Part shown: piece by piece, positions 2,472 through 20,814 of the stretch
Numbering within the stretch: the first letter of the stretch is position 1
Layout of the letters: each line of letters begins with the position of its first letter
Source of the DNA: Betaproteobacteria bacterium
GTDB lineage: Bacteria > Pseudomonadota > Gammaproteobacteria > Burkholderiales > Rhodocyclaceae
DNA: 33,189 nt
Assembly: GCA_009776435.1 (NCBI GenBank)
Contig: WRNU01000006.1
Coordinates: forward strand, 1-33,189
Direction of reading: 5' to 3'
Program-made: the position numbers and the translations under genes
The notes under the pieces: generated by a model
The model's database searches: none
What the model was told of the DNA's origin: nothing
The model's input: only the letters and a program-made list of their open reading frames with translations

Positions 2472-3690
2472 CGTGGTCCGCCTGCCCACGCAATTGCCTG
2501 TGCGTCTGATCCTGCTTGCTGCGGCGATTTTTTTCGTGCCGCTTCAAACGGCCTTTGCCGCCCCGCCCACTACGGCGTGGCGTGGCGCGGCGTTTTCCGG
2601 CGATCGCGCCGCGCTGGAAAAACTCGCCGCCGCCGGAGCGAACGCCGTGCGCGTCTATCACGAAAGCGACGCCTGGGTGCTCGATGAGGCGCGCAAACTC
2701 GGGATCGGCGTGCTCATGGGGCTGGATGTCGGGCTGCCGCGCCACGGTTTTCGCCTCGACGACCCCAAGGCCATCGCCGCGCAGGAAAACCGCATTCGCG
2801 CGTTCGTGCAACGCTACCGGAATCACCCCGCGCTGCTGGCCTGGGTCATCGGCAATGAAGTCGAACATGGCATGGACGATCCCTTGCCGTCGTGGCGCGA
2901 GATCAACCGCCTGGCAGGAGTGGTCAAGGCGCTCGACCCCGTTCACCCCACCGTAATGTCGGTCAACGACGGCGGGCGGCCATACCTGGAACAACTTGCC
3001 GGATGTTGCGCGCACGTCGATATGATTGGGATCAATCTCTACGCGGGTGCGGCATTTGGTCTGGACGCGCGTATCCGTGCCGCTGGCATCGGCAAACCAT
3101 TGTTGATCACCGAACTCGGCCCGCTCGGACAATGGCAGGCCGGTCGCAAACCCTGGGGCGCGCCGGTCGAACTCACCAGCCGCGAGAAAGCGGCCTTTTT
3201 TCGCCGCGCATTGGCCGAGTTGAGCAGGAACCCGCAAGTTCGCGGCGTTTTCGCCTTTCTGTGGGGCGTAAAGCAGGAACAGACTGCAACCTGGCACGGA
3301 CTGCTGCTTTCGGACAACACCCTCACCGAGATGACCGACGCGCTGACTGAGGCCTGGGGCCGTCCGGTTACACGCGCCGCGCCAGGCATCCTTGGCATCG
3401 GCATCTCCGCCGACGAATTCGCGCCGGGTGCGATTGTTTCGTCCACGATTGATGTACGCGGCGAGGCGCTCGTTACCGAATGGCGGGTGCGCAAGGAAGC
3501 AACCGATCTGCGCAAAGGGGGCGAGACCGAACCTTTACCGGAGGCGGTCGGCGTGGAAATGCTCGCTGCCGAAACATCCAGCGTCCGTTTCCGCGCCCCT
3601 TCGACTCCCGGCGCATATCGGCTGTTCATCACTGTACGCGATGGAAACGGCAAGGCGGCTACGGCCAACCTGCCGTTTCTGGTGAAGTGA
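2461..3690 (+). CDS. Exported glycoside-hydrolase-like TIM-barrel protein (GH2/GH5-like, clan GH-A type)
   Basis: Signal-like N-terminus ([19 protein letters not shown]); [28 protein letters not shown] and [10 protein letters not shown] resemble clan GH-A beta4/beta7 catalytic motifs. Start codon uncertain (overlaps the htpX stop). Its 3' end is the source type of the downstream tail repeats. Confidence 0.7.
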
Positions 3691-4843: not shown

Positions 4844-4854
4844 AAAATACACCC

Positions 4855-4972
4855 TTCCAGCGTCCGCTTCCGCGCCCCTTCGACCCCCGGCGCATATCGC
4901 CTGTTCATCACTGTACGCGACGGCAGCGGCAAGGCGGCTACGGCCAATCTGCCGTTTCTGGTGAAGTGAGAT
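4855..4972 (+). repeat. Gene-tail direct repeat, copy B (orphan 3' end of the glycoside-hydrolase-like gene)
   Basis: Encodes [37 protein letters not shown] with no upstream gene body; differs from copy A mostly at synonymous sites. Confidence 0.93.
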
Positions 4973-5087
4973 AGAACCGGGAACAGAACCGCTGTCCCCG
5001 GAACACCCAGCGTAGATGCATGAAGGCGGAAGCCGACAGATGCACTGAAAAATCTTTTTGCAGCGATAGCTCGCCCGCTTGATATTG

Positions 5088-5103
5088 TTCAACAGTTGTT
5101 GAA
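5088..5103. promoter_or_regulatory. Inverted repeat TTCAACA-GT-TGTTGAA, candidate ArsR operator
   Basis: Perfect 7-bp arms immediately upstream of the arsR start codon (5114). Confidence 0.6.
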
Positions 5104-5113
5104 TAATCATCCA

Positions 5114-5470
5114 ATGGAAACAAAAACTGCCGCCATCATCTTTGAAGTCCTGACTTCCGAGGCTCGACTTTCCATTTTCCGGCTGCTGGTCAAATACGCG
5201 CCGGACGGACTGGTTGCCGGGGAGATTTCCCGGATGCTGGATATTCCGAAAACCAACCTTTCCTTTCACCTGAAAACCATTGTCCACGGCGGGCTTGCCA
5301 GCATGGAGCGAGAAGGCCGCAATACGCGGTACAAGGCCAACATCTCTCTGATGCTGGAGACCATCGCCTACTTGACGGCTGAATGCTGTTCCGGTAGCCA
5401 GAACTTTCGGGCGGCAGGTGGAGCCGTACCGGAATTTCCATCGACTTGCTGTGAAAGCAAGAACCCGTAA
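5114..5470 (+). CDS. arsR: ArsR-family arsenic-responsive repressor
   Basis: LTSEARLSIFRLLVKYAPDGLVAGEISRMLDIPKTNLSFHLKTIVHGGL winged-helix; vicinal Cys pairs (ECCSGSQ, TCCESK) in the C-terminal region; next to arsM. Confidence 0.88.
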   Translation: METKTAAIIFEVLTSEARLSIFRLLVKYAPDGLVAGEISRMLDIPKTNLSFHLKTIVHGGLASMEREGRNTRYKANISLMLETIAYLTAECCSGSQNFRAAGGAVPEFPSTCCESKNP

Positions 5471-5482
5471 TGAGAAGGAGGC

Positions 5483-6523
5483 ATGACGATGAGATTGTCT
5501 GAAAAAGAAAAAGAACTGGTTGCGATTGGTGCATCCATCGGCGGAAACTGCATTGCATGCCTTCAGTGGCATTACAGAAAATGCAAAGAACTTGGATTCA
5601 GCAATGACGAAATGCGCGAAGCGTTTGGTATTGCAAAAAAGGTCAAGGAAGTTCCAAACAACAAAATTTACGAAACGACGGAGGAATTGATCATGCAGAG
5701 CAAAACCACATCAAACGAACAAGTCAGAGAAACCGTGCGCGCCGGATACGCGGCCATTGCGACGGATGGCTCCTGCGGAGGCGGAGGCTGTTGTGGCCAA
5801 CCTGATCCCACTCGGCTGGCGAAAGCCGTAGGCTACGACGCAGAAAGCCTTGTCAATCTGCCAGAAGGCGCGAACATGGGGCTTTCCTGCGGAAACCCCG
5901 TTGCCATCGCGGCTTTAGAGGAAGGACAGGTTGTGCTCGACCTTGGCAGCGGCGGTGGTTTCGACGTGTTTCAGGCAGGCGTAAAGGTAAAAGCATCCGG
6001 GCGGGTCATCGGTGTGGACATGACCCCGGAGATGATTGCCAAGGCTCGCAAGAACCTTGAGCAGTACCGCCAGTGTCCCGGACTGGATAATGTAGAGTTT
6101 CGTCTTGGCGAAATCGAATATCTGCCCGTAGCGGACGCCAGCATCGACGTGGTGCTTTCCAATTGCGTCATCAATCTTTCGCCAGACAAACCTCGAGTCT
6201 GGCGTGAAATCTTCCGTGTGTTGAAACCGGGCGGCAAAGTATCTGTTTCCGATTTGGCTCTGCTGAAACCGCTTCCCGGCAACCTCCAGGAAATGACGGC
6301 GGCGCTGGTGGGCTGCGTGGCCGGGGCGGTTTTGGTGGAAGAAACCAGGGGCATGCTGGAAAAGGCGGGGTTCGCGTCCATCGTCCTGACGCCCAAGCCG
6401 GACTACGTGCGAAGCATGCAGGACTGGAACGATCCTCTATACAAGGAAATCGCGCAAACCCTGCCGCAAGGCGAAGAAATAGCCGATTACGTTGTTAGCC
6501 TGGACATTGAGGCCAGGAAATAG
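5483..6523 (+). CDS. arsM: Fusion of AhpD/CMD-like CxxC domain with arsenite S-adenosylmethionine methyltransferase (ArsM)
   Basis: N-terminal [34 protein letters not shown] (CMD/AhpD-like with CIAC), then [19 protein letters not shown] motif, [20 protein letters not shown] and [13 protein letters not shown] typical of ArsM. Internal start at 5693. Confidence 0.9.
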
Positions 6524-6823: not shown

Positions 6824-6905
6824 GTGCCCGCCCGTTGCTTGCAGGCATTGCGCACCACGCCTCTCTGAGCCACAATGTAGCCCAGAGAATTTGGAGAATC
6901 ATCCC

Positions 6906-7172
6906 ATGACTGCAAACGCTGTTGTCCGCGCCCGCATCGACGAGCGCATCAAGGAAGAGGCTTCGACCGTGCTGGCGGCGATAGGGCTTACCGTGTCAGA
7001 TGCGTTTCGCATTATGTTGACTCGCATCGCAAATGAGAAGGCGCTGCCGTTTGAGCCGTTAATACCAAATGAAACCACTATTGCGGCCATGCGCGAAGCC
7101 CGCGCTGGCTGCGGCCTTAAAAGTTTCGATAGTGTTGAAGCATTGATGGCGGATCTGCATGCGGAGGATTGA
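6906..7172 (+). CDS. RelB/DinJ-family antitoxin (no adjacent RelE-type toxin seen)
   Basis: MTANAVVRARIDERIKEEASTVLAAIGLTVSDAFRIMLTRIANEKALPFEP is typical RelB/DinJ. Confidence 0.87.
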   Translation: MTANAVVRARIDERIKEEASTVLAAIGLTVSDAFRIMLTRIANEKALPFEPLIPNETTIAAMREARAGCGLKSFDSVEALMADLHAED

Positions 7173-7227: not shown

Positions 7228-7255
7228 ATCATGATGATTCTTGACGTTTCATGAT
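7228..7255. promoter_or_regulatory. Inverted repeat ATCATGA-N14-TCATGAT, candidate autoregulatory operator of the RHH-Doc module
   Basis: Perfect 7-bp arms 31-58 bp upstream of the RHH start (7286). Confidence 0.45.
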
Positions 7256-7285
7256 AAGGTGAACCCTCAAAGAACGAGGTGTTCC

Positions 7286-7525
7286 ATGCCAACGACGGTC
7301 AAACAAAAAAAGGTCAAATTCGCTACCCAGGCAGACCCGGAAGTGCTGGTCGCGCTCCGCAAAATCGCCGGACAGGAAGGCAGGCAGTTGCAGGCGCTTG
7401 TGGATGAAGCATTGCGCGACTACATCGAACACAAGCAAGGCAAATCCCCCCGCCGACACGTCATGCAGGCCATGCATGACAGCATGACCCAGTACGACTC
7501 CCTGTACCGGGAGCTTTCCAGGTGA
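7286..7525 (+). CDS. RHH-type antitoxin of the RHH-Doc pair
   Basis: VKFATQADPEVLVALRKIAGQEGRQLQALVDEALRDYIEHKQ; stop overlaps the GTG start of the Doc gene. Confidence 0.75.
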   Translation: MPTTVKQKKVKFATQADPEVLVALRKIAGQEGRQLQALVDEALRDYIEHKQGKSPRRHVMQAMHDSMTQYDSLYRELSR

Positions 7526-7905
7526 GGGACTACCTGACCTCCACGGATATCCTGGCCCTGCATCAAATCGTTTTGCAACGCTACGGTGGCGCCCCCGGCC
7601 TTCGTGACATGGGGGCGGTGGAAGCGGCAGTGTTTCGCCCGCAATGCGGCTATTACAATAACATTATTGAAGAAGCTGCCGCTCTGCTGGAAAGCCTGCT
7701 CATCAACCATCCGTTTGTAGACGGCAACAAACGTGTTGCTTTTGCTGCTTGCGACGTTTTTTTGCGCATCAACGGCTGGCGGATTCGCGCCGAGCCGGAG
7801 TGGCTCTATCGGCGCATGATGGCCTGGATCGAGTTTCGGGGGGATCGCTTCGAGCACATCATCCAGGATCTCAAAAACTGCGCAGTGCAGCAGGATGGCG
7901 TGTGA
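7522..7905 (+). CDS. doc: Death-on-curing (Doc/Fic-fold) family toxin
   Basis: LESLLINHPFVDGNKRVAFAACDVFLRINGW contains the Doc motif HPFxDGNKR. Confidence 0.9.
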   Translation: MRDYLTSTDILALHQIVLQRYGGAPGLRDMGAVEAAVFRPQCGYYNNIIEEAAALLESLLINHPFVDGNKRVAFAACDVFLRINGWRIRAEPEWLYRRMMAWIEFRGDRFEHIIQDLKNCAVQQDGV

Positions 7906-11305: not shown

Positions 11306-11626
11306 ATGGATTCAGCCATGTCTTCCGATACTTCTCCCTCTGACGTTCGCATCAACGCTCGTCTTTCCGGCGATGACGCGGCACGTTTCCAGGAATTGCT
11401 GGAAAGCAGCGGCCTGTCGGCCTCCGACTTGTTGCGTGCCGCCTTGCGCGAATACCACGCGGCGCATGCGCGTTCGCCGCGCGACCCGCTGGCCTTGCTG
11501 GCGGGGTTTATCGGTTCGGGCGAAGGACCGGAGGATCTGTCGGCTCGCTATAAGGAATACTGGAGCGAGTCGCTGGAAAACAAAATCCCGCTTTCGGTAC
11601 AAGAGCCTCGTGGTACTTACAGATAG
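11306..11626 (+). CDS. RHH-type antitoxin (paired with PIN toxin)
   Basis: DVRINARLSGDDAARFQELLESSGLSASDLLRAALREYH; overlaps the downstream PIN gene. Alternative ATG at 11318. Confidence 0.72.
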   Translation: MDSAMSSDTSPSDVRINARLSGDDAARFQELLESSGLSASDLLRAALREYHAAHARSPRDPLALLAGFIGSGEGPEDLSARYKEYWSESLENKIPLSVQEPRGTYR

Positions 11627-12038
11627 CGGTTTCTGGATCGCGCTGTGCAATCGGCGCGACCGCCATCACGCTGCCGCGTTCGCAGCCGCCAAGCGTTGGT
11701 CTGGCGAAGGGTTTGTCACAACCTGGCCGGTGTTGACCGAGGTTTGCCACCTGCTGGTGGCGCGCGTTGGCGTGCATCAGGCGCTCGAATTCATGGATGC
11801 CGTCGCGCAAGGGGCGGTCGACGTGCCGCAGTTGGACGAAGATGCGCTCTCCCGCGCCAGCTACCTGATGCGTCGTTACCGTGACTTGCCGATGGATCTG
11901 GCCGATGCTTCGCTGGTGATCCTCGCCGAGCAATTGGAAGAAGGCCGCATTCTTTCCACCGACCTGCGCGATTTTTCCGGTTATCGCTGGAAGAACAATC
12001 AACCCTTTACCAATTTATTGCTGCCCTACCAAAGCTGA
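11610..12038 (+). CDS. PIN-domain toxin (VapC-like)
   Basis: VVLTDSGFWIALCNRRDRHH...WPVLTEVCHLL...DLPMDLADASLVILAEQ...ILSTDLRDF: PIN acidic-residue pattern. GTG start at 11610 inferred; the longer ORF N-terminus is out of context. Confidence 0.83.
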   Translation: MVLTDSGFWIALCNRRDRHHAAAFAAAKRWSGEGFVTTWPVLTEVCHLLVARVGVHQALEFMDAVAQGAVDVPQLDEDALSRASYLMRRYRDLPMDLADASLVILAEQLEEGRILSTDLRDFSGYRWKNNQPFTNLLLPYQS

Positions 12039-12058: not shown

Positions 12059-12865
12059 ATGATGGCCAGACTGCTCATTCAAATATCATTTATTTTCATT
12101 CCCTTCATAAGCCATTTCGCCCATGCGGCCGATCCGTTGATCGTTCATGTTTTCGTTGCCTTGGCCGACAATAAACATCAAGGCATCGTTCCGGTTCCCG
12201 CTGCGCTGGGCGATGGCGACAATCCTGCGAAGAATCTGTACTGGGGCGCGGCGTATGGAATGAAAACCTTTTTCGGCAAAAAATCTCCCGCCTGGAAGCT
12301 CGAATACTGTCGCAGTGCGGTTTCCGAGTCGGTGTTGGAACGCTGTGTTTTTTCGGCACGTAACAGCCCTTCCGCATACCTGATTGCCGACGCATATCGT
12401 GGTCGGAAGATTGATAAGGCAATGGCCGATTTCATGCACTCTGCGGCGGGTAAGTTACCGCTCGATGAATCAAACTCCCGGCATCAGCCTGCAATACACA
12501 TTCAGGCGTCGAACAGCGCCACACTGTCCATCTATGTCGGTCACAACGGCTTGATGGATGCGCCGTTGCAGCCCATTGCGCGGACTTTTCCGACCGGGAT
12601 TGCGCAAGAAAGGCAAGCGGTTGTTCTTGCATGTAAAAGCCAGATGTATTTTGCAGACTACCTGAACCGCAGCGGCGCGCAAAGCCTGGTTTTGACATAC
12701 GATTTCATGGCCCCTGAAGCCTATGTCGTCGAGGGAATCGTTGAAGGCCGCCGACACAATGAAACGGCGGAACAAATTCGCATCCGCGCCGCAAAAGCCT
12801 ACGCAAAATATCAGAAAATTTCTGAAAAATCGGCGCGTCGTATGTTTGGCGCGCCGAAACTTTAG
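12059..12865 (+). CDS. Secreted protein of unknown function with possible caspase-like (clan CD) fold
   Basis: Signal peptide (MMARLLIQISFIFIPFISHFAHAA); strand+H motif LSIYVGHNGLMD and strand+C motif QAVVLACKSQMYF in the order seen in C13/C25/CHAT-type proteins. Confidence 0.6.
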   Translation: MMARLLIQISFIFIPFISHFAHAADPLIVHVFVALADNKHQGIVPVPAALGDGDNPAKNLYWGAAYGMKTFFGKKSPAWKLEYCRSAVSESVLERCVFSARNSPSAYLIADAYRGRKIDKAMADFMHSAAGKLPLDESNSRHQPAIHIQASNSATLSIYVGHNGLMDAPLQPIARTFPTGIAQERQAVVLACKSQMYFADYLNRSGAQSLVLTYDFMAPEAYVVEGIVEGRRHNETAEQIRIRAAKAYAKYQKISEKSARRMFGAPKL

Positions 12866-12888: not shown

Positions 12889-13401
12889 TTATCGGGCGGC
12901 CAGCAAACTTTCATACCGCATCCGTTCTTCCTCCGAAAAGCAGCAGAAAATCACCTCCCGGATGCCGGGCAGGCGTGCCAGCGCCTCCCGCACGGTACAG
13001 AGCGCATGCGGGGCGGCCAGATCGGGCGGGTAGCCGTAGACGCCGGTGCTGATGCAGGGAAAGGCGACGCTTTCCAGCCCGGTCTGATCGGCGAGTTCCA
13101 GCGCATGGCGGTAGCAGGCGGCGAGCAGCGCCGGTTCGCCGTGCACTCCGTCGCGCCAGATGGGGCCGACGGTGTGGATGATGTGTCGGGCAGGGAGGCG
13201 GAAGCCGGGGGTGATTTTGGCCTCCCCCGTGGCACAGCCGTTCAGGGTATGGCAGTGGGCCAACAGTTCCGGCCCGGCGGCGCGGTGAATGGCGCCATCG
13301 ACTCCGCCGCCGCCCAGAAGGGTGTTGTTGGCGGCGTTGACGATGGCGTCGACGGTCAATGTCGTAATATCGGCACGGATGACGCGCAGGGAGGCGGACA
13401 T
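12889..13401 (-). CDS. Macro-domain protein, O-acetyl-ADP-ribose deacetylase-like (YmdB type)
   Basis: [68 protein letters not shown]. Confidence 0.94.
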
Positions 13402-13483
13402 GATGAAATCGGAATCGAAGGCGCGAAACACATATTATCGCGCTTGTCGGAAGGAAGGAACGGTGAAGGCGATGGGAGGTTCG

Positions 13484-13918
13484 ATGATACGGCGGGTTCT
13501 GGCAATGGGAATGTTGTTGGCGGCAGCAGGCGCGGTGCAAGCGCAGGCACAGCGGGCAAGCCTGGAGGCGGGCGGGCATCGCATCGAGGTCGAGGTAGCC
13601 GCCGACGAGCAGACGCGACAGCTTGGGCTGATGTACCGGAGTCGTCTTCCCTCCGGGCAGGGCATGTTGTTCTTGTATCCGTCTTCGCTCCGCATCTGCA
13701 TGTGGATGAAAAACACGCTGATCCCGTTGTCGGTGGCGTTTCTCGATGAAGAGGGGCGCATCCTCAATATTGAGGACATGACCCCGTTGAGCGAGGAGTC
13801 CCATTGCTCGGTGAAACCGGCGCGCCATGCGCTGGAGATGAACCAGGGCTGGTTTGCCGGGCATGGCGTGAAGGCGGGCGACAGGGTCGAGGGGGTAAAA
13901 TCCCTGTCCACGAAATAA
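13484..13918 (+). CDS. DUF192 family exported protein
   Basis: VAADEQTRQLGLMYRSRLPSGQGMLFLYPSSLRICMWMKNTLIPLSVAFLDEEGRI; signal peptide. Confidence 0.88.
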   Translation: MIRRVLAMGMLLAAAGAVQAQAQRASLEAGGHRIEVEVAADEQTRQLGLMYRSRLPSGQGMLFLYPSSLRICMWMKNTLIPLSVAFLDEEGRILNIEDMTPLSEESHCSVKPARHALEMNQGWFAGHGVKAGDRVEGVKSLSTK

Positions 13919-18805: not shown

Positions 18806-19543
18806 TCAGGGCTTTTCAGCCAGCGGTTGAGTTGCCCCGCCGAGAACTGCGAGGGGCGTGTTCGATCCGTGTTCAAACACCAACTGCAAGCCAGGGGCAG
18901 TGCGCAGGCTGTGCGGCAGCAGGTAATCCCCTGCGGTGAGTGGGATTTCCAGATATTCAAAGCGCGCGCCGAGATCGACGCCGGCGCGTTGCCAGGCCGC
19001 CCAGACCAGAGTTGTGCAGTACAGCCCTTCGTGGTCGTTTCCGACGATGCGAAATGGCGTTCCCAGGCGCTGCAAGACGTATTCCACAGCAGCAGCGCGT
19101 GATGCGGCAGTGGCGGCGATGCGGTAAATGGCAACGCCGCGCGCACGTTCGGGAGACAGGAAAAAATCCAGGTCATCGCGCACAACCGCATCTGTTCGTC
19201 CGGGCTTTTCGGCAGGTACGGCATGCACGACCTGCCAATGCCCCGGCGAACCGATCAGCATGCCCACATGGCTGTATGGATCGCCCCGTTGTTGTTGGGC
19301 GCTCGCCATGCCGCGTACGACATCGCTTTGCCAACCGTCGCCAATGCGAAAAATCAGATCGCCCGGCTGGAGTTGGGAAGAGATGTCGGTGGGCAGGACA
19401 ATGGCAACTGCTGGCCCGGACTCGTCCGTGCCACGCATGGCGTAAGCCGTGGCAGCTACTATCAGCGCGAAGCAAAACAGCCAGACTGGCAATGCAGAAA
19501 GGGTGAGACCGCGTGATAATGTGGGAAAGCGGAAAAAGTTCAT
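18806..19543 (-). CDS. Permuted papain-like amidase/peptidase (YiiX/YebB type)
   Basis: LQPGDLIFRIGDGWQSDVVRGM, DPYSHVGMLIG, EGLYCTTLVWAAWQRAGVD; MNFFRFP start overlaps the upstream lipoprotein stop (ATGA). Confidence 0.78.
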   Translation of the reverse strand: MNFFRFPTLSRGLTLSALPVWLFCFALIVAATAYAMRGTDESGPAVAIVLPTDISSQLQPGDLIFRIGDGWQSDVVRGMASAQQQRGDPYSHVGMLIGSPGHWQVVHAVPAEKPGRTDAVVRDDLDFFLSPERARGVAIYRIAATAASRAAAVEYVLQRLGTPFRIVGNDHEGLYCTTLVWAAWQRAGVDLGARFEYLEIPLTAGDYLLPHSLRTAPGLQLVFEHGSNTPLAVLGGATQPLAEKP

Positions 19544-19959
19544 TTCAGACGGATTTTCCATTTACCCGATTCCTGGATCAGGGTCATCCGATCTTTTTTC
19601 GATTGGCCGTTCTTGAATTTCGTCTCTACCATTACGGTGGCACTGGTACCGTCTTCATTCTTTTCGACAAGATTCGTGGAAACCGAATCCAGACCGCCAT
19701 TATCCTGTATCACGGAATACTGCTGTCCGACAATCATCTGGAGTTTCCCTTTTACTGCCGTTAAATCGTTTTCCTTTATGTCTCCCAGCGCAAAGTACCC
19801 GATGGCCTCTTCAACACGGTTGTTGGCAGCAGCTTTCATATAATCGCCGGCGACACTTTCCGGCGATTGAGATGAACAGGCGGCAAGCAGTGCGAAAACA
19901 AAAAACGTCCCCAAAAGGGTGGTCAGTTTGCGGCCAGCAGTGGAAAAAAATTCCGACAT
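19540..19959 (-). CDS. DUF4878-like lipoprotein (paralog 2)
   Basis: Lipobox FALLAACSS, ESVAGDYMKAAANNRVEEAIGYF...MTLIQESGKWKIRLK; paralogous to 20295-20705. Confidence 0.78.
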   Translation of the reverse strand: MSEFFSTAGRKLTTLLGTFFVFALLAACSSQSPESVAGDYMKAAANNRVEEAIGYFALGDIKENDLTAVKGKLQMIVGQQYSVIQDNGGLDSVSTNLVEKNEDGTSATVMVETKFKNGQSKKDRMTLIQESGKWKIRLK

Positions 19960-20126
19960 GAGAACTCTCCTGATGAGTAATAACAAAAGTTGAGTATGCC
20001 AAAAGAAAATGCCTCTTCTTTTGGTCAAGCGAATATTATAAGCAATCCCGCAATTATTGTAAAGGCTGGCGCATTACAGCATACTTGAATTGCATTGAAA
20101 CGTTTCCCTGCGACTTGAAGGAAGGA

Positions 20127-20232: not shown

Positions 20233-20298
20233 TCACCCCATTGTCCTGAATGCTTGTGTGCAAAACTCCTCTTGCTCGCTGATGCGGAAAATGTTCAT
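20233..20298 (-). pseudogene. Possible vestigial start of a second amidase gene (21-codon ORF MNIFRISEQEEFCTQAFRTMG)
   Basis: AGATGAACATTTTCCGC matches AAATGAACTTTTTCCGC at the start of the 18806-19543 gene, in the same ATGA overlap with a DUF4878 paralog; then diverges. Confidence 0.4.
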
Positions 20299-20705
20299 CT
20301 CAATTGGATTTTCCATTTGCCCGATTCTTTGATCAGATCCATCTGACCACCGTCCGTTTCGCCGTTCTTGTATTTCAACTCCAACTCTACCTTGGCACGA
20401 GTGTCGTCGTCATTTTTGCTGACAAGACTCGTCAAAATCGAATCCACGCCACCATTATCCTGTACCTGCTGATGGAGTCCTTCGACATGCGCTTGAAGTT
20501 TTTTCTTTTCATTTGCATCTCTTTGCACAAGGTACTCAATGGCCTCGTCAACGCGGTTGGCGACAACGGCTTTTACATGGTTGGAGACGACGCTTTCCGG
20601 TGTTTCCGGCGTGTGTGATGAACAGGCGACAGGCAGAGCGAAAATGGAAAACGTCCCAAAGAGGGTGATCAGTTTGCGGATAGAAACGGTAAAAAAACGC
20701 GGCAT
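20295..20705 (-). CDS. DUF4878-like lipoprotein (paralog 1)
   Basis: Lipobox FALPVACSS, ESVVSNHVKAVVANRVDEAIEYL...MDLIKESGKWKIQLR; paralogous to 19540-19959. Confidence 0.75.
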   Translation of the reverse strand: MPRFFTVSIRKLITLFGTFSIFALPVACSSHTPETPESVVSNHVKAVVANRVDEAIEYLVQRDANEKKKLQAHVEGLHQQVQDNGGVDSILTSLVSKNDDDTRAKVELELKYKNGETDGGQMDLIKESGKWKIQLR

Positions 20706-20814
20706 GAGAACTCTCCCGATGAACGATGTAGTATACACCGAATATACCAAAGAGAATTCCTTATGATTTTTTTTGAGATGTCAATGTAAACAATTTTACG
20801 CACTTTTACTTGAA

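Follow-up and report, generated by a model that had tools for sequence, protein, structure and literature searches.

This locus raises the question of whether the exported protein encoded at 12059-12865 of the window (the whole stretch of 33,189 nucleotides analysed here) is a His-Cys peptidase of the clan CD type. The original prediction had read it as a secreted protein, possibly of an uncharacterised caspase-fold family. We found that the gene belongs to an unnamed family of exported proteins that is rare among bacteria and widely scattered. On balance we think that its product is an exported, free-standing Cys hydrolase, most likely a peptidase, in which Cys192 would be the nucleophile and His162 the base. 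The family is most likely new, clan CD-like but unplaced.

The gene and its product

The gene starts with ATG, its frame is open throughout and GAGGAAAAGAGG just upstream is, by eye, a good ribosome-binding site. The frame and the codons of the two key residues (His162, CAC at 12542-12544, in GHNG; Cys192, TGT at 12632-12634, within LACKS) lie where they had been predicted. Compared with the 83% identical copy of a betaproteobacterial MAG (L004), the dN/dS value indicates purifying selection, i.e., the window gene is selected and is not a chance frame. The flhB/flhA neighbours are common to L004 and the window, which argues against contamination of the window assembly. Export had also been predicted correctly: by eye, the protein begins with a Sec-like segment (MMARLLIQISFIFIPFISHFAHA-AD), and a strongly hydrophobic N-terminal 12-mer was found in 35 of the 39 family members. 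A crude pattern located a lipobox-like site in nine members.

Table 1. Coordinates of the gene and of the conserved features of its product.
Feature	Position in the window	Strand	Evidence
Gene, exported protein, 268 aa	12059..12865	+	Open frame, ribosome-binding site, similar-length homologues, dN/dS 0.12
Signal peptide, about residues 1-24, cleavage near AHA-AD	12059..12130	+	Read from sequence
Strand b1, residues 27-34	12137..12160	+	AlphaFold2 E27-34; E2-9 in the L005 model
Conserved loop DN..QGIVPVP..LG-G..P..NLYWG, residues 37-63	12167..12247	+	D37 38/39, N38 37/39, Q41 37/39, N59 38/39, L60-Y61-W62-G63 39/39; probable substrate pocket (putative role)
Strand + GHNGLMD: His162, N/D163, D/E167	12524..12559	+	H162 39/39, N/D163 39/39; strand E156-161
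Strand + ACKSxxYF: Cys192, Ser194, F198	12614..12652	+	C192 38/39, S194 38/39; strand E186-190
Strand SLVLT + MAPEAY: Thr213, Glu220, Tyr222	12680..12724	+	T213, E220, Y222 each 37/39; strand E208-212
C-terminal helices with AAKAYAKYQKI: Tyr248, Gln252	12767..12847	+	Y248 39/39, Q252 38/39; helices 237-252, 256-263

A rare family scattered over four phyla

A first scan of contigs gave six relatives, and a profile of the seven sequences was then used for a wider search. The family set comprises 39 members from Pseudomonadota, Acidobacteriota, Planctomycetota and Bacteroidota, 28-47% identical to the window protein (L004 excluded). Within the class of the window, the profile of seven found matches in 4 of 368 other genomes; it found none in 398 other genomes drawn from the phylum, together with 5 of 395 Bacteroidota, 6 of 293 Planctomycetota and 15 of 246 Acidobacteriota genomes. 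The gene is present in one copy per genome, one Acidobacteriota copy (G1467) being split in two. Three members are located on large plasmids, and a search of phage and viral collections and contigs gave no relatives. The family tree mixes the phyla, with 11 label changes where 3 would be sufficient, and its starred branches force at least two changes each for Acidobacteriota and Pseudomonadota. The gene has therefore likely been transferred between phyla. As the original prediction had suspected, the family is uncharacterised; sequence searches against Pfam, NCBIfam, PADLOC and the PDB, with one member and with all 39, assigned it to nothing convincing.

A conserved His-Cys pair

The conservation of His162 and Cys192 in homologs, which had been proposed as a check, turned out to be nearly complete (Table 1), and the His/Cys pair in the family exceeds chance. 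Among the 39 members, all remaining His and Cys columns stay below 94%. The His is preceded by Gly in all of them (G161, 39/39) and followed by Asn in 26 and Asp in 13, while the residue before the Cys is Ala in 30 and otherwise G, C or S. The two residues are separated by 24-39 positions, mostly 24-33, the exception being L013 with 59 by a crude pattern search. The only member without the Cys is that of an Agarilytica plasmid (L016, 7836-8717), where it is changed to R. In this protein D37 and Q41 are gone as well, as is most of the QGIVPVP loop; from its sequence it looks as if one functional site had decayed as a whole, and it is probably an inactive member. We also considered a disulfide between C36 and C254. 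Both Cys are present in 24 of the 39 members, yet each occurs without the other, and we do not argue for it.

Predicted structure

AlphaFold2 models were obtained for the window protein (7 sequences; pLDDT 74, pTM 0.78) and for the core of an Acidobacteriota member (L005; pLDDT 85, pTM 0.87), the second being the better one. Each model has an alpha/beta architecture that starts with a strand and a helix, continues with a two-strand hairpin, a further strand and a helix, and then runs through strand-GH, strand-AC, a helix and strand-T to the final helices. In both, the His and the Cys are placed where successive strands end or just beyond, as is the case in clan CD; in the window protein His162 directly follows strand 156-161 and Cys192 comes after strand 186-190. 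The arrangement of a His and then a Cys, each closing a beta-strand, had thus been read correctly, and the helix-strand-helix order after the Cys resembles that of clan CD. The caspase-hemoglobinase fold that had been proposed is neither confirmed nor refuted. The order of elements in the models is compatible with clan CD, but when both models were run against the PDB with Foldseek, nothing reached E <= 0.001, and the 50 best matches of either included no structure of clan CD. A search of viral structures with the window model retrieved nothing significant. By the published account, the AlphaFold2 model of a proven protease, YabG, also retrieves a Rossmann-like CheY fold and not caspases (PMC10681294).

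Comparison with named peptidase families

The databases searched gave no significant peptidase match for the family, either by sequence or by structure. Profile membership was found for none of CHAT (PF12770), Peptidase_C14 (PF00656), Peptidase_C25 (PF01364) and YabG (PF05582): Pfam gave no match to CHAT, Peptidase_C14 or YabG among the 39 members and matched Peptidase_C25 in one, at E = 0.012 only. We built C25, CHAT and C14 profiles from genome sequences and compared them by hhalign with column shuffles. The YabG profile came from only three plasmid records (the search query, 99.4% identical to a record, was not in the profile). The P values were 0.014 for C14, 0.026 for YabG, 0.067 for C25 and 0.51 for CHAT, and the scores were reached by 14, 4, 7 and 188 of 200 column shuffles, respectively. 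The resemblance to CHAT domains that the original prediction had seen in the C-terminal part was thus not borne out. In the best, although weak, alignments H162 is paired with the catalytic His of each of C25, C14 and YabG, and one C14 model aligns C192 with its catalytic Cys, again with a weak score. It is the GH motif itself that carries these alignments, so they are not independent proof of kinship. The motif register looked persuasive, but the scores against shuffles give no support to homology with C14, C25, CHAT or YabG.

The clan CD feature of an invariant His before an invariant Cys, both putatively catalytic here, is found in the family alignment. The classical motif, stated for C11 as His-Gly...Ala-Cys, is not, as N or D follows the His in 39 of 39 members. 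The His-before-Cys order claimed at the outset as the clan CD signature holds; for the residue after the His, YabG offers a tested His-Asp precedent. CHAT and Peptidase_C14 proteins have the same order of strand-His, strand-Cys, helix, strand and helix, but they carry the classical His-Gly, are mostly cytoplasmic and often repeat-fused, and their profile match is not significant. Peptidase_C25 (PorU/gingipain) proteins are exported like the family and have the strand-GH...strand-C order with the His in register in a weak alignment; they differ in a 374-position domain accompanied by other domains, in GHGG instead of GH[N/D]G, and in a score that does not clearly exceed that of shuffles.

The nearest working model is the sporulation protease YabG or PrtG (Peptidase_U57, PF05582), a proposed clan CD family (PMC12445089, PMC10681294), in which H161, D162 and C207 are each required for autoproteolysis (PMC10681294). 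It is a proven His-Asp...Ala-Cys protease, so a protein of this kind can be a protease. In both YabG and the family, an alpha/beta domain contains a His followed by N or D and later Ala-Cys-x-Ser, with His-(N 26/D 13) and Ala-Cys in 30 of 39 on our side, an equivalence by motif only. The family could even be a divergent YabG relative that would have no SH3-like domain but an export signal, for extracellular use by non-sporulating bacteria. The motifs (TGHD and GACQSHFESLIRAGAN in YabG against GH[N/D]G and ACxSxxYFxxxLxxxGAxPLL), the requirement for the three YabG residues and the column shuffles, the best outcome of the clan CD set, speak for such a kinship. We nevertheless regard it as unlikely: the profile similarity is not significant (hhalign probability 1.9%, with 13 of 200 block shuffles reaching the score) and rests on three sequences, and the gap between His and Cys is 46 in YabG (PMC10681294). 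Unlike YabG, the family is exported and found in four Gram-negative phyla.

Proposed function

As an exported Cys hydrolase, the mature protein would be a single alpha/beta domain. The nucleophile would be Cys192, which closes a core strand, and the general base His162, which closes the strand before it and would be aided by its neighbour N/D163. The substrate pocket would be formed by two loops, DN..QGIVPVP..NLYWG, which follows strand 1, and T213/PEAY220-222. The site of action would be outside the cytoplasm, in the periplasm, the outer membrane or the medium. There the protein would cleave a peptide-like substrate that is conserved and perhaps derives from the envelope, in some species together with DUF4846 wall enzymes. 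We infer a mode of action like that of clan CD or YabG-type His-Cys proteases and assign no named family.

The same residues might instead hold a metal or cofactor, with His162, Asp167, Cys192 and Asp37 as ligands in a Rossmann-like domain of a non-hydrolytic enzyme. D37, D/E167 and E220 nearly match the conservation of the dyad, and the weak Foldseek matches are mostly nucleotide-binding or metal enzymes, but these are insignificant (E >= 0.02, TM below 0.4), a paired Cys or HxH-type site is absent, and the His and Cys stand at successive strand ends as expected for base and nucleophile, all of which makes this alternative improbable. A non-catalytic role in binding or structure, with the conserved residues serving to maintain the fold, seems very improbable, despite the many invariant aromatic or glycine residues (LYWG, Y248) and the absence of an operon partner. 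The conserved polar residues are grouped on loops that follow strands, and exported proteins rarely keep a single Cys and a single His to this degree across phyla.

The hydrolase reading adds to the exported bacterial His-Cys hydrolases a strongly conserved, testable and unnamed candidate, in which YabG-like His-Asp...Cys chemistry may have a wider home. More tentatively, and with considerable doubt, the family might be a new YabG-like branch of clan CD, whose exported proteases, of the His-(Asn/Asp)...Cys type, would have a DN-Q-NLYWG pocket unique to them, would have spread horizontally between phyla and would share an envelope peptide substrate with DUF4846 NlpC/P60-like enzymes.

Association with DUF4846 and gene neighbourhood

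DUF4846 (PF16138) is a predicted NlpC/P60-like wall enzyme with a papain fold (PMC10318531). One family member (L032, 1438-2943) carries a C-terminal DUF4846 domain (E 1.1e-43), and DUF4846 is present in 16 of 37 family genomes against 4 of 64 genomes without the family (Fisher p 1.3e-5; p 0.006 when permuting within phylum and genome-size bins), the 64 controls being convenience picks that are phylogenetically unmatched. Apart from the fusion, the DUF4846 and family genes are unlinked. With such controls and unlinked genes we take the association as a lead and no demonstration. Being papain-like, DUF4846 would be a possible partner of the family and no relative, and the co-occurrence and fusion suggest a functional setting for DUF4846 itself. 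In another member (L046, 586-2226) the family domain is joined to an N-terminal NAGPA phosphodiester glycosidase (E 2.4e-14).

The gene neighbourhoods of about 35 loci showed no recurrent partner. The flhB/flhA genes common to the window and L052 were taken for coincidence. In the window, a VapBC-like pair on the plus strand precedes the gene, with an RHH/CopG antitoxin (11306-11626) and a PIN-domain toxin that ends at 12038 and is separated from the gene by 20 bases. A macro-domain protein (12889-13431, minus strand, E 5e-47) is convergent with the gene, and beyond it come DUF192 (13382-13918) and then flhB/flhA.

Other genes of the window

A Peptidase_C92 gene (YiiX/YaeF permuted papain-like amidase; 18806-19561, minus strand, E 6.5e-10) codes for an N-terminal hydrophobic segment, which gives the window another candidate for an exported Cys hydrolase. 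Two small lipoprotein genes on the minus strand (19540-20028 and 20295-20750) are neighbours and apparently paralogous, the first matching DUF4878. On the plus strand, a RelB antitoxin gene without obvious toxin (6900-7172) and a Fic/Doc gene preceded by a small gene (7241-7905) may be further toxin-antitoxin genes or their remains. An ArsR-like regulator, recognised by eye (5096-5470, plus strand), is followed by a methyltransferase-carboxymuconolactone decarboxylase fusion (5483-6523, plus strand) that looks like an arsenite methyltransferase. Finally, the end of the 2461-3690 gene (about 3560-3690) is seemingly repeated some 1.2 kb downstream (4850-4974) with closely similar translations, in what seems to be a local duplication.
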